From: Sulfurimonas sp.
GTDB taxonomy: Bacteria > Campylobacterota > Campylobacteria > Campylobacterales > Sulfurimonadaceae
DNA length: 32,536 nucleotides
Assembly: GCA_027064045.1 (NCBI GenBank)
Contig: JAMOQK010000063.1
Span: 1 to 32,536 of the forward strand
Direction: 5' to 3'
A program made the translations under genes and the position numbers. The notes under the pieces were generated by a model. That model was not told where the DNA came from. It was given only the letters and a program-made list of their open reading frames with translations, and searched no databases. Of the stretch, positions 28,463 through 32,536 are shown piece after piece. Position 1 is the stretch's first letter; the number at the start of each line of letters is the position of its first letter.

Positions 28463-29839
28463 ATGGCTATAATTGAATCAAATCAAATGCGTCGCGCCCA
28501 TCGAATCGACATCCCTCTTATTGTAATTATTGATGGTGTTGCTTACAAATCAAAAGATTGGTCAATGACTGGGGTTGGTATTGACAACTTAAATATAACA
28601 CTAGAAATAGATGATATTATAGATGCTTCTATTGTTTTAGCATTAAAAGAAGCAAAATTAGAAATCCCAGTAAAACTACAATTTAAAGTTAAAAGAGGTA
28701 GTGTAAGTGGTTTTGAATTTAATCAAATATCTGAAAAAAACAAACGAGTCTTAAGAGAATTTTTAGAACTATCCATAGAAGGGAAACTTGATCAGATTGA
28801 TGGTTTAATCAGTATATACAACGAACCAGTTATAAATACCCCCATAAAAGAATCTGTAGTTTTAAGTGATGAAGAAGACAGCATGCTAAAAAAAGCATTT
28901 ATTAAGCGTTCTAAACTTTACATAAAACTAGCTATCATATTTTTTATACTTGTAATAGCTACCATCTACTACAACACCTCTTATATATATCGTTCTATTG
29001 GTACTGTATCTGGCAATTTTATTAAAATAGCACCAAATATTAGTGGTAAAATCAGAAAAATAGATATTAAAGTTGGAGATAAAGTGACTAAACAAGATCT
29101 TCTATTTGAGTTAGATGATAAAATGATTTTGAACAAAATAGACATTATAGATGCCAAATTAACAGATTTAAAAGGATATAAAAACACCAATACACAGCCA
29201 AGAAACACAAACTCTCAACTTTTAAACTTATTAAAAAGTGAGCTTAACAGAACATATAACTCTTATAGATCAGCAAAAGAACTTTACAAACAACGGATAA
29301 TCACAATTAATGATTTAAGAAAAATAAAAGAGACTTATAATAGAGCAAAAATAAAATATTTACAGGAAAAAAACAAGCATACCACTATAAGTACTTCTTC
29401 TAGTATGGTTAGCCTTGTTACTCAATTTGAGCTAAAAAGAGAGGAACTAATCAATACCTTAAACTATTTACGAGTATTTAGTCCTTATGATGGTGTTGTA
29501 TATGCTATAAAATCCCACGAAGGTGATTATGTAAATGCTAAAGATGAAGTAATTGTTTTAGAAACAGATGAAGTTTCCTTTGTTGTATGCAAACTAAAAC
29601 AAGATGAGACATTACAGATACAAAAAGGGATGAAAGTTAAGATATATGCTTCAAGCACAGATGAAACATACTCTGCACATGTACAAACAATCGGAAATCT
29701 ATCTTTAAATACTAAATCAGAAATAACAAATGAAGTTAGCTTAAAAGAGGTAACACTAAAAATTGTTTTTGATAATCCAAGCGTAAGACTTCCTCTAAAT
29801 GAAAGAGTAAAAGTCTGGTTTTATAGACCCCTCTTTTAA
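28463..29839 (+). CDS. PilZ domain plus HlyD-family membrane-fusion protein (Alg44-like)
   Basis: PilZ motif pair RRAHR...DWSMTGVG near the N-terminus; one TM helix (LAIIFFILVIATIYY); HlyD-like biotinyl-lipoyl halves (GNFIKIAPNISGKIRKIDIKVGDKVTKQDLLFELD ... VFSPYDGVVYAIKSHEGDYVNAKDEVIVLE). Confidence 0.88.
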   Translation: MAIIESNQMRRAHRIDIPLIVIIDGVAYKSKDWSMTGVGIDNLNITLEIDDIIDASIVLALKEAKLEIPVKLQFKVKRGSVSGFEFNQISEKNKRVLREFLELSIEGKLDQIDGLISIYNEPVINTPIKESVVLSDEEDSMLKKAFIKRSKLYIKLAIIFFILVIATIYYNTSYIYRSIGTVSGNFIKIAPNISGKIRKIDIKVGDKVTKQDLLFELDDKMILNKIDIIDAKLTDLKGYKNTNTQPRNTNSQLLNLLKSELNRTYNSYRSAKELYKQRIITINDLRKIKETYNRAKIKYLQEKNKHTTISTSSSMVSLVTQFELKREELINTLNYLRVFSPYDGVVYAIKSHEGDYVNAKDEVIVLETDEVSFVVCKLKQDETLQIQKGMKVKIYASSTDETYSAHVQTIGNLSLNTKSEITNEVSLKEVTLKIVFDNPSVRLPLNERVKVWFYRPLF

Positions 29840-29841
29840 TA

Positions 29842-32526
29842 ATGGCTCTTGTAAAAAAAAGATACGGTAAGAAAGACGGGCTTATAAGTCTTATAGAACC
29901 ATTATTACTATATGGTACTATAGCCTCCATACTCTTTTATGTTATATGGCCATATGTATATTATATCAAAAATGAAACACTACTAGTTTTGGGAGTGTTT
30001 GCTACTTGGCGATATGGCTGGTTACTTATAAATTTCACTAGAGCATTTCTTTATGCAAAAGTAGCTTACCCAAATCTAAAGAAAAAAATAAAAAACTTGG
30101 ATGAAGATGTAAAATACCCAAACCATGTATATTTTTCCATACCCTCTTACAAAGAAGAATCTTGGGTAAGTGTTGAAACATTTAAATCAATAATGAATGA
30201 ATTATCTGTTATACCATCTAGTGCAACTATTATAGTCTCAACTTCTGGTGACCCACAAGAAGATGCTATTATATATCAAACTTGCAAAGCACACCATGCT
30301 TTTGATAAGGTTGAACTTGTATTCCAACATCAAAAAGAGGGCAAAAGGATAGCCATGGGTCACTCTATGAGAGCTATTGCTAGAAGATATTATAAAAAAG
30401 ACAAAGATTTTAATAGTGTTACTTTTTTTATGGATGGAGATAGTTACCTTGAAAGAGGATTTTTTCAAAAATTACTTCCCCATTTTGCAATAGATTCAAA
30501 TCTAGGTGCAGTTACCACAAATGAAGCCGCATTTATACGAACAAATTCAAATTGGTATAAAGACTGGTTTAACCTTAAGTTTGGACAAAGGCATACTCTT
30601 TTTCAATCTCATTCACTCTCTAAAAAAGTTTTAACACTAACAGGGAGACTATCTGCATACAGAACAGATATTATTGTACAAGAAAAATTTATCAGTCGCG
30701 TAGAAAACGATATAATCACAACAGTGATGCATGGAAAATTTAGATTTTTAATGGGTGATGATAAAACCACTTGGTTTAACCTACTTGAAGCTGGTTGGAA
30801 TATGAGATACCTACCAGATACCTTATGCTACTCTTTAGAAAGTAGAGATGCAGACTTTTTAGATCTTAGTCGCTCTCTACCTTATAGATGGTATGGAAAT
30901 ACTTTAAGAAATTCAAATCGTGCTTTAAGTCTTGGTCCAAAAAAAATAAAAAGTTTTTTTATCTGGTGGGCAATCTTAGATCAAAGAATTTCCATGTGGA
31001 CATCATTAGTTGGAATTACTGGAGCTATTATCTTAGGAATTTTTAAGTCATATTTTTATCTACTTTTTTATCTTGTTTGGATTTTATATGTAAGGATGTT
31101 CCAACTCATCATAATCGCATATAATGGACATCCAGTATCTATAAGAACTATCCCACTCATGCTTTATACACAATGGGCTGGTTCAATAGTAAAAATAAAA
31201 GCTTTATTTCATCTATCTGATCAAAAATGGTCAAAAGGAAATGAGATACAAAGTAGTGATGATAGTGTTGCAAAAATCAACCATCCACTATTTGACAAAA
31301 TGCCAGATATACTAATGATTTTTTCATATAGTTTTTTTATTTATATCATGCTTTTATCTCACAATATGATTTCCCTTCCAGATTTGGATTTACTTAAAGA
31401 AAAAACTATTAAGATAAAAAAGGACAATAACATTATAGATTCTAGTAATTTTGGTGTTATTGTGAATGATAATAAAGATGATGCCAAAGCTATCAATAAG
31501 CTTATAAAAAATGCAAAAGACAACACAACCATAATCTTACCAGAAGGAATAATAGATTTATATTCTTCTATCATAATCAATCGTTCAAACATAACCATAA
31601 AAGGTGCATCAAAAGAGAAAACAATTATTGTTTCGCATTTAAAAACAGCCGATCAAGTTGCTATATATGTCAAAGGAAAACGGTTAAAAAAAATAACCAC
31701 CCTCAGCAAAGATATAAAATACGGTCAAAGTATCATAACTGTAAATAAAAATCTACAAAATCATACAAATTGGATTAAAATCAGAGAGCCAAATGATAAA
31801 GAATTTTTCAATAAACTAAACTCCTTAATCTGGAGGAGAAGATACCCTTATCTTAGACAAGAGATAGTAAAAATCACTTCTAAGCACAAAAAACTTTTAT
31901 TTTTAAATAGTTCTATTACTACCTCTTTTAAGGCAAATTATGCAGAAATATACAGTTTGAAAATGATTGAAAATGTAAAGCTTAACTCATTTACAATTAA
32001 ACAAAAGATTCAAAATCATACGATACAAGAAACTGTTGGTATATATGCAAATATATTTCCAAACCATATGGTTGATATGTTGAAATTTGAATATGTGGCA
32101 AATTCAAATCTAAGCGAAATTAAAATTCTAAATGCTGGAAGTAATCCACTTGTTTTTGAAAATGTTTATGGTTGTAAGGCTACAAATATTTACATAAATG
32201 GTTCTTGGAATAAAGGAAAAAAAGGAAATGGGTATGTTCGTTTTAGTCGTGCCTTTAATTCAAGGTTTTCAAATTCTATTGTCAAAAATATCAGACACCT
32301 AACTATACAATGGAGCAGTGCGAATAATGTTTTTGAAAATTTAGAGATGCATGTAGATATTAATCTTCATGGTGGATACTCGCACGATAACAACATCAAA
32401 AATATAATCTTCAATATCCCATCTTTTCATAAATGGAAAGGTATAACGCTAACACCACCAAATGCAAGATGGGCGCCACCAGATGGCTCAAAAAATTACG
32501 CCCAAAATATAAGCTATAAAAAATAA
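29842..32526 (+). CDS. Alg8-like family 2 glycosyltransferase fused to a C-terminal right-handed beta-helix domain
   Basis: N-terminal TM helices; GT2 motifs FFMDGDSYLERGFF, SRVENDI, GDDKTTWF, LPYRWYGNTLRNSNRALSLGP, WWAILDQRISMWTSLVG. After the last TM (ILMIFSYSFFIYIMLLS), pectate-lyase-3-like NFGVIVNDNKDDAKAINKLI and a beta-helix-like region to the C-terminus. Confidence 0.85.
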   Translation: MALVKKRYGKKDGLISLIEPLLLYGTIASILFYVIWPYVYYIKNETLLVLGVFATWRYGWLLINFTRAFLYAKVAYPNLKKKIKNLDEDVKYPNHVYFSIPSYKEESWVSVETFKSIMNELSVIPSSATIIVSTSGDPQEDAIIYQTCKAHHAFDKVELVFQHQKEGKRIAMGHSMRAIARRYYKKDKDFNSVTFFMDGDSYLERGFFQKLLPHFAIDSNLGAVTTNEAAFIRTNSNWYKDWFNLKFGQRHTLFQSHSLSKKVLTLTGRLSAYRTDIIVQEKFISRVENDIITTVMHGKFRFLMGDDKTTWFNLLEAGWNMRYLPDTLCYSLESRDADFLDLSRSLPYRWYGNTLRNSNRALSLGPKKIKSFFIWWAILDQRISMWTSLVGITGAIILGIFKSYFYLLFYLVWILYVRMFQLIIIAYNGHPVSIRTIPLMLYTQWAGSIVKIKALFHLSDQKWSKGNEIQSSDDSVAKINHPLFDKMPDILMIFSYSFFIYIMLLSHNMISLPDLDLLKEKTIKIKKDNNIIDSSNFGVIVNDNKDDAKAINKLIKNAKDNTTIILPEGIIDLYSSIIINRSNITIKGASKEKTIIVSHLKTADQVAIYVKGKRLKKITTLSKDIKYGQSIITVNKNLQNHTNWIKIREPNDKEFFNKLNSLIWRRRYPYLRQEIVKITSKHKKLLFLNSSITTSFKANYAEIYSLKMIENVKLNSFTIKQKIQNHTIQETVGIYANIFPNHMVDMLKFEYVANSNLSEIKILNAGSNPLVFENVYGCKATNIYINGSWNKGKKGNGYVRFSRAFNSRFSNSIVKNIRHLTIQWSSANNVFENLEMHVDINLHGGYSHDNNIKNIIFNIPSFHKWKGITLTPPNARWAPPDGSKNYAQNISYKK

Positions 32527-32536
32527 ACTATCTATA

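Follow-up and report, generated by a model that had tools for sequence, protein, structure and literature searches.

Alg8-type synthases, β-helix epimerases and fusions within exopolysaccharide (EPS) operons are all known. AlgG-type epimerases, which are separate proteins in alginate machines, have been described as encoded by all alginate-producing bacteria (PMC4444821), and in AlgE7 a single site, with H154 as the base and Y149 as the acid, serves both the lyase and the epimerase reaction (PMC8824271). The part of an EPS-operon survey consulted here (PMC7112194) documents the fusions BcsAB, BcsZ-BcsC and GT-PgaB, which resemble the gene described below in joining synthase or modification/export parts, as well as deep-sea bacteria whose atypical alginate operons lack outer-membrane transport or acetylation genes; the same part makes no mention of an Alg8-β-helix fusion. 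Nor did we find a prior report of one in the openly accessible journal literature that was searched. The Alg8-β-helix fusion appears to be new, and it is plausible that the enzyme family of its β-helix half is new as well.

The window, the whole stretch of 32,536 nucleotides analysed here, is the entire contig C63 of a Sulfurimonas MAG that has a size of 1.53 Mb and a completeness of 75%. It contains an 894-aa ORF that runs uninterrupted from ATG to stop and ends 10 bp short of the contig end.

29842..32526, forward strand: fused synthase-β-helix gene, 894 aa, with full-length homologues
30118..30900, forward strand: GT2 catalytic domain of the Alg8 family, residues 93-353 (Pfam match; D198-x-D200 and GDD 305-307 intact)
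31300..31368, forward strand: last predicted TM helix, residues ~487-509 (hydropathy; predicted topology)
31417..32523, forward strand: C-terminal β-helix-type domain, residues 526-894 (profile matches and homologues)
31438..31641, forward strand: N-terminal β-helix region, residues 533-600, the sole part that generic β-helix models recognise

The synthase half is assigned by sequence to the Alg8-type GT2s. Pfam Glyco_tranf_2_3 (PF13641) matches residues 93-353 with an E-value of 1.3e-27, and the acidic motifs D198-x-D200 and GDD 305-307 are invariant across the aligned fusions. The nearest annotated GT2 relatives, at 34-36% identity, reside in complete alginate clusters (Rhizobium/Roseobacteraceae), and an Alg44-like partner accompanies the gene; a BLAST of the fused synthase against its own genome's BcsA yields no match. 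These results uphold the original prediction of an Alg8-type membrane GT2, and the motifs it quoted are all located in the 894-aa protein, namely RWYGNTLRN at residues 349-357, WWAILDQRISMWT at residues 375-387, SSNFGVIVNDNKDDAKAINKLI starting at residue 534 and INLHGGYSHDNN starting at residue 840. Hydropathy predicts a positive N-terminus, two N-terminal helices, the GT2 domain and then three more helices. Given this order and a cytoplasmic GT2, the β-helix C-terminus would lie in the periplasm, in agreement with the earlier proposal of a β-helix positioned at the synthase exit.

As in Alg8 systems, a PilZ/HlyD-type gene lies directly upstream, and its stop codon falls 2 bp before the synthase ATG.

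28463..29839, forward strand: Alg44-like partner, 458 aa, a PilZ-TM-HlyD-type adaptor (Pfam and motif reading)
32410..32536, no strand: 127-bp exact overlap with contig C47 (contig-end sequence identity)

The Alg44-like protein matches HlyD (PF13437, HlyD_3) above the cut-off at 1.5e-11 and PilZ (PF07238) below it at 0.0023; the c-di-GMP motifs of PilZ read as intact in the sequence (RxxxR 10-14, DxSxxG 32-37). Past the overlap, C47 continues with a putative TolC-like outer-membrane gene in convergent orientation, after which come bcsA/B/Z/C. The TolC-like character of this neighbour is suggested by its coiled-coil-rich sequence, which has no Pfam match. The cellulose operon on C47 (L003, 2602-12031) is complete, bcsA-bcsB-bcsZ-bcsC, with a SPOR-like gene before it. 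In G368 the outer-membrane gene, the SPOR-like gene, bcsA and bcsB are continuous on one contig, and this arrangement is also seen in G378 and G454. A second operon type, found in L018 and G387, runs from an OMP gene through the Alg44-like gene and the fusion to one or two PL7 copies, and L019 shows the last three of these elements. In all three loci the PL7-family genes are directly downstream of the fusion, and the L018 PL7 keeps the RSELK, QIH and YYKAGVY motifs. The fused protein thus shares with Alg8 the GT2 domain, its DxD/GDD motifs, the level of identity given above and the upstream partner, but differs in its C-terminal β-helix, its separate clade and its putative TolC-like outer-membrane neighbour. 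Unlike Alg8 systems, its locus lacks algD, algE, algG and algK, and none of AlgE, AlgK or AlgG adjoins the fused gene.

After the last membrane helix, a right-handed β-helix-type domain of ~365 aa is predicted from profile matches to its N-terminal region, in an ORF that is unbroken, as had been claimed. TIGR03805 (beta_helix_1) matches at 2.1e-6, under its cut-off, and Pect-lyase_RHGA_epim matches 3/3 homologues, at best 2.5e-5 and likewise under cut-off. The top PDB profile matches are β-helix proteins, among them 7chu, a putative pectin lyase (2e-8), and 9ozd, the RbmB lyase (8e-6), and the AlgE4 epimerase 2pyg matches at 0.01. All Pfam, NCBIfam and PDB β-helix matches are confined to the first ~60-100 residues; for the full domain, no Pfam or NCBIfam model scores above cut-off and no solved structure is found by sequence match. 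AlphaFold runs on a 3-row alignment gave low-confidence models (pLDDT 39 for the full-length protein and 46 for the domain). With the better of these (pLDDT 46, pTM 0.42), Foldseek places many β-helix enzymes among the top PDB matches, none of them significant (best E 0.013). The same low-confidence model finds no meaningful match among Foldseek viral structures, searches of viral contigs and phages for the domain find none, and a turn-periodicity analysis of the domain gives a signal too weak to interpret. The PL31 structure 6kfn has no sequence match to it and an insignificant Foldseek match with that model. By these comparisons the domain belongs to a family of its own, one that has neither a curated full-length model nor a solved structure.

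Three described β-helix systems come closest. AlgG resembles the domain in being a β-helix periplasmic to an Alg8-type synthase, but the fusion lacks DPHD, shows no profile similarity and is covalently joined to the synthase. The absence of DPHD had been predicted, and a motif search finds no [DE]PH[DE] in the domain. The relation to AlgG that this prediction had left to be checked does not survive: hhalign gives a probability of 0.5%, no NosD or Beta_helix match is found, and AlgG homology is rejected. Second, AlgE4 and AlgE6, among the secreted AlgE1-7 proteins of Azotobacter, give PDB profile matches in the N-terminal region only, and a Salipiger relative of the domain shares the β-helix+RTX layout beside an alginate operon; the fusion itself has neither DPHD/DPHE nor RTX. 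Finally, RbmB of Vibrio cholerae (9ozd/9ozl), a β-helix lyase whose structure was solved with bound Vibrio polysaccharide, is one of the domain's nearest neighbours by sequence and by fold, but the similarity spans only the N-terminal ~60 residues and RbmB is not fused to a synthase.

The remainder of the domain carries a strongly conserved signature, read from an alignment of 16 fusions, two of them incomplete at contig ends, that come from 15 genomes.

32209..32235, forward strand: signature 1, NKGKKGNGY, residues 790-798 (N790, K791, G792, G795, G797 and Y798 invariant)
32293..32313, forward strand: signature 2, RHLTIQW, residues 818-824 (R818-H819 invariant)
32356..32376, forward strand: signature 3, DINLHGG, residues 839-845 (D-x-N-x-H-G-G invariant)
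32470..32484, forward strand: signature 4, WAPPD, residues 877-881 (invariant among the fusions)

The invariant residues of signature 1 are kept in 16/16 fusions and in the Thermus, Vibrio, Streptomyces and Salipiger relatives. Among 15 diverse family members the invariant positions include R672, N790, K791, G792, G795, G797, Y798, R818, H819, N829, D839, N841, H843, G844, G845 and N850 (numbering of the 894-aa protein), all of which are invariant among the 16 aligned fusions too. Because R672, N790-K791, R818-H819 and D839-x-N841-x-H843 do not vary in the aligned fusions, the β-helix domain is probably an active enzyme. The original prediction had singled out INLHGG as the nearest feature, of unclear activity; the motif is present and falls within the invariant D-x-N-x-H-G-G signature of the family, so it is likely part of an active site.

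Relatives of the domain outside the Campylobacterota were reached by tblastn against plasmids. The Thermus thermophilus homologue is 28% identical over residues 595-890 (E 1e-35), and further relatives occur in Vibrio pelagius, Streptomyces, Agarilytica and Salipiger. In T. thermophilus AA3-7 (L042, 2932-3904) two overlapping ORFs make up the homologue, whereas that of SNM7-6 (L036) is intact. The Streptomyces versions (L040, 1509-5963; L041, 2856-6125) form the C-terminal parts of large multidomain proteins, and the L041 protein also contains ricin-B-like and weak PI-PLC-like domains. The Vibrio pelagius homologue (L039, 6329-8323), annotated as 'GH28-related', belongs to a locus for uronate utilisation that also contains uxaC, heparinase II/III, a kdgM porin and a gene of the alginate-lyase family. 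Salipiger sp. CCB-MM3 encodes a 922-aa hypothetical protein (L043, 13550-16318) with the same β-helix family and C-terminal RTX repeats; ~1.5 kb downstream of its gene, on the same strand, follows the dehydrogenase gene of an alginate operon that is complete. Within the Campylobacterota, contig C61 of G378 (L100, 204-8565) carries a solo β-helix of 388 aa that probably has a signal peptide; two PL7-family lipoproteins come next.

The reading we favour, to which we give about an even chance, is that an Alg8-family processive GT2 is joined to a periplasmic β-helix domain of the lyase/epimerase type that acts on the nascent chain, with a PilZ-HlyD/TolC-like conduit. The synthase would build the chain, and the last membrane helix would deliver the β-helix into the periplasm near the chain exit. 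There, as a C5-epimerase and/or lyase, the domain would apply C5-proton chemistry in cis to the emerging chain, and so do the job of the separate AlgG-type epimerases in alginate machines. The PilZ-HlyD protein would couple synthesis to c-di-GMP and, with the TolC-like protein, might form a conduit in place of AlgK/AlgE. C5-proton chemistry is favoured by the conserved N/K/R/H/D/N/H set with its one acid, by the PL7-family genes that travel with the domain, by the Salipiger β-helix+RTX relative just upstream of an alginate operon and by the Vibrio relative in a uronate-degradation locus. Counting against this reading are the absence of DPHD, the amino-sugar-type locus of G378, the dehydrogenase-negative unfused sister G473 and the four fusion genomes that lack a UDP-glucose dehydrogenase.

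Several of these observations would suit a different enzyme. BcsZ, for cellulose, and PgaB, for PNAG, trim or release chains, and the domain could likewise be a glycoside hydrolase or transferase that trims or releases a neutral or amino-sugar chain. The Pect-lyase_RHGA_epim match and the GH28/GH55-type annotations of relatives agree with this, as does the bcs operon that adjoins the locus in several genomes. The unfused sister G473, which is 98% complete, yields no nucleotide-sugar dehydrogenase match to an AlgD query, and the G378 solo copy has a PgaC-like synthase and a polysaccharide deacetylase as neighbours. Together with its PL7 genes, that locus suits a polymer of amino sugars better than a polyuronate, and by its gene content the β-helix module would be common to Alg8-type and Pga-type systems. 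D839, however, is the sole acidic residue conserved across the wider family, a point against a glycosidase of the standard two-carboxylate kind, and PL7-family genes accompany the domain in several genomes. We consider a hydrolase or transferase unlikely, if a serious contender.

The domain might instead be a non-catalytic guide or scaffold that hands the chain to the HlyD/outer-membrane conduit. Its place at the synthase exit would suit such a role, and no separate AlgK/AlgG-type periplasmic scaffold gene adjoins the locus. Against it stands the polar cluster N, K, R, H, D, N, H, which persists all the way from Thermus to Sulfurimonas, stand-alone secreted relatives included, and exceeds what binding alone usually needs, so that a purely structural role seems improbable.

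Comparably doubtful is the reading as an alginate synthase that has diverged and whose β-helix is the equivalent of AlgG, its polymer being ordinary alginate, the context that the original prediction had implied. The nearest annotated GT2 relatives belong to alginate clusters, PL7 genes follow the fusion in three loci, and G000 has a ManC/AlgA-like gene. AlgD, by comparison, is found in 0/15 fusion genomes, whereas the unfused operon-type genomes G463, G437 and G506 carry one, 70-72% identical to that of G091. The AlgI-type MBOAT is missing from G000, G014 and G340, and AlgE (PF13372) from G000 and G340; G014 has one AlgE elsewhere, unlinked to the locus. MBOAT is also missing from the operon-type G091, so its absence alone is not diagnostic. 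Operon-type loci of G091, G051, G087 and G103 (L013-L016), the first and third examined by domain searches and the other two read by synteny, contain Alg8, Alg44, an AlgE-type gene, an AlgD-type dehydrogenase and, encoded separately, a NosD/Beta_helix protein of ~870 aa that keeps DPHD; PL7 and AlgA are also present in G051 and G091. With AlgG and AlgK not adjacent, no AlgG match for the domain and the fusions in a clade separate from operon-type Alg8, the alginate context is not borne out. Since AlgD is in no fusion genome, yet is carried by the unfused operon-type systems that were checked, the name alginate should be avoided for the product, and the polymer is probably something else.

A polymer with a UDP-glucuronate-derived sugar is our leading guess, at weak strength. 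A UDP-glucose dehydrogenase-type enzyme is encoded in 11/15 fusion genomes, a count that has no baseline, the enzyme being common in bacteria generally. It is TuaD-like in G000, G454, G507, G486, G481, G523 and G476, and of the E. coli type in G368 and G369 and, by sequence resemblance, in G387 and G378. It is missing from G361, G014, G475 and G466, which are 91-96% complete.

That the fusion is an assembly artefact, or two genes joined by chance, has a negligible probability: the incomplete host MAG and the nearby contig end would allow it, but the fusion recurs across independently assembled genomes, among them the 99% complete G368, where it lies inside a 198-kb contig with neighbours identical in kind. 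Two other Sulfurimonas MAGs hold the full-length fusion at 45-46% identity, and both halves have dN/dS well below 1 relative to G368 (0.05 for the GT2 and 0.09 for the β-helix, with dS saturated). A frameshift or assembly join is rejected on this shared full-length architecture and dN/dS, and the continuous ORF stands. A search profile built from three Sulfurimonas fusions was run genus-wide and order-wide; it finds the fusion in 7/135 genomes of the genus and in two other families of the order, which overturns a restriction to 2-3 Sulfurimonas MAGs. The fusion noticed at first is thus real but no one-off, its architecture being conserved in 16 proteins from three families in one order of Campylobacterota.

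Quick trees, with SH-aLRT as their only support, bear on its ancestry. In the GT2 tree the fusions form one clade, with the unfused G473 synthase as a long-branched sister and operon-type Alg8 apart, and the subgroups of the β-helix tree match those of the GT2 tree. This agreement makes a single ancient fusion event most likely, and one fusion followed by loss or transfer would be the simplest history. The G473 synthase (L099, 7465-11541) is 521 aa long and has an Alg44-like gene. The G378 solo domain nests among the L018/G387 domains and looks like a secondary release from the fusion.

Taken as a whole, the locus may represent a new class of synthase-dependent exopolysaccharide machine, in which an Alg8-family synthase is covalently linked to an active β-helix CAZyme, the first of a new family, that modifies or cleaves the synthase's own non-alginate polymer in cis as it is made, with export of the HlyD/TolC-like type, responsive to c-di-GMP, replacing AlgK/AlgE; we put this forward as a tentative proposal, possible rather than probable. 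In synthase-dependent secretion, the coupling of synthesis to modification is usually approached through complexes of several proteins, which are difficult to reconstitute. A polymerase and a periplasmic editing domain on one polypeptide, if true, would make this coupling directly testable. The domain may also define a new family of carbohydrate-active enzymes, one whose members extend to thermophiles, actinomycetes and marine degraders. For Sulfurimonas, an ecologically important marine sulfur oxidiser, the fusion points to an unrecognised, c-di-GMP-linked exopolymer.
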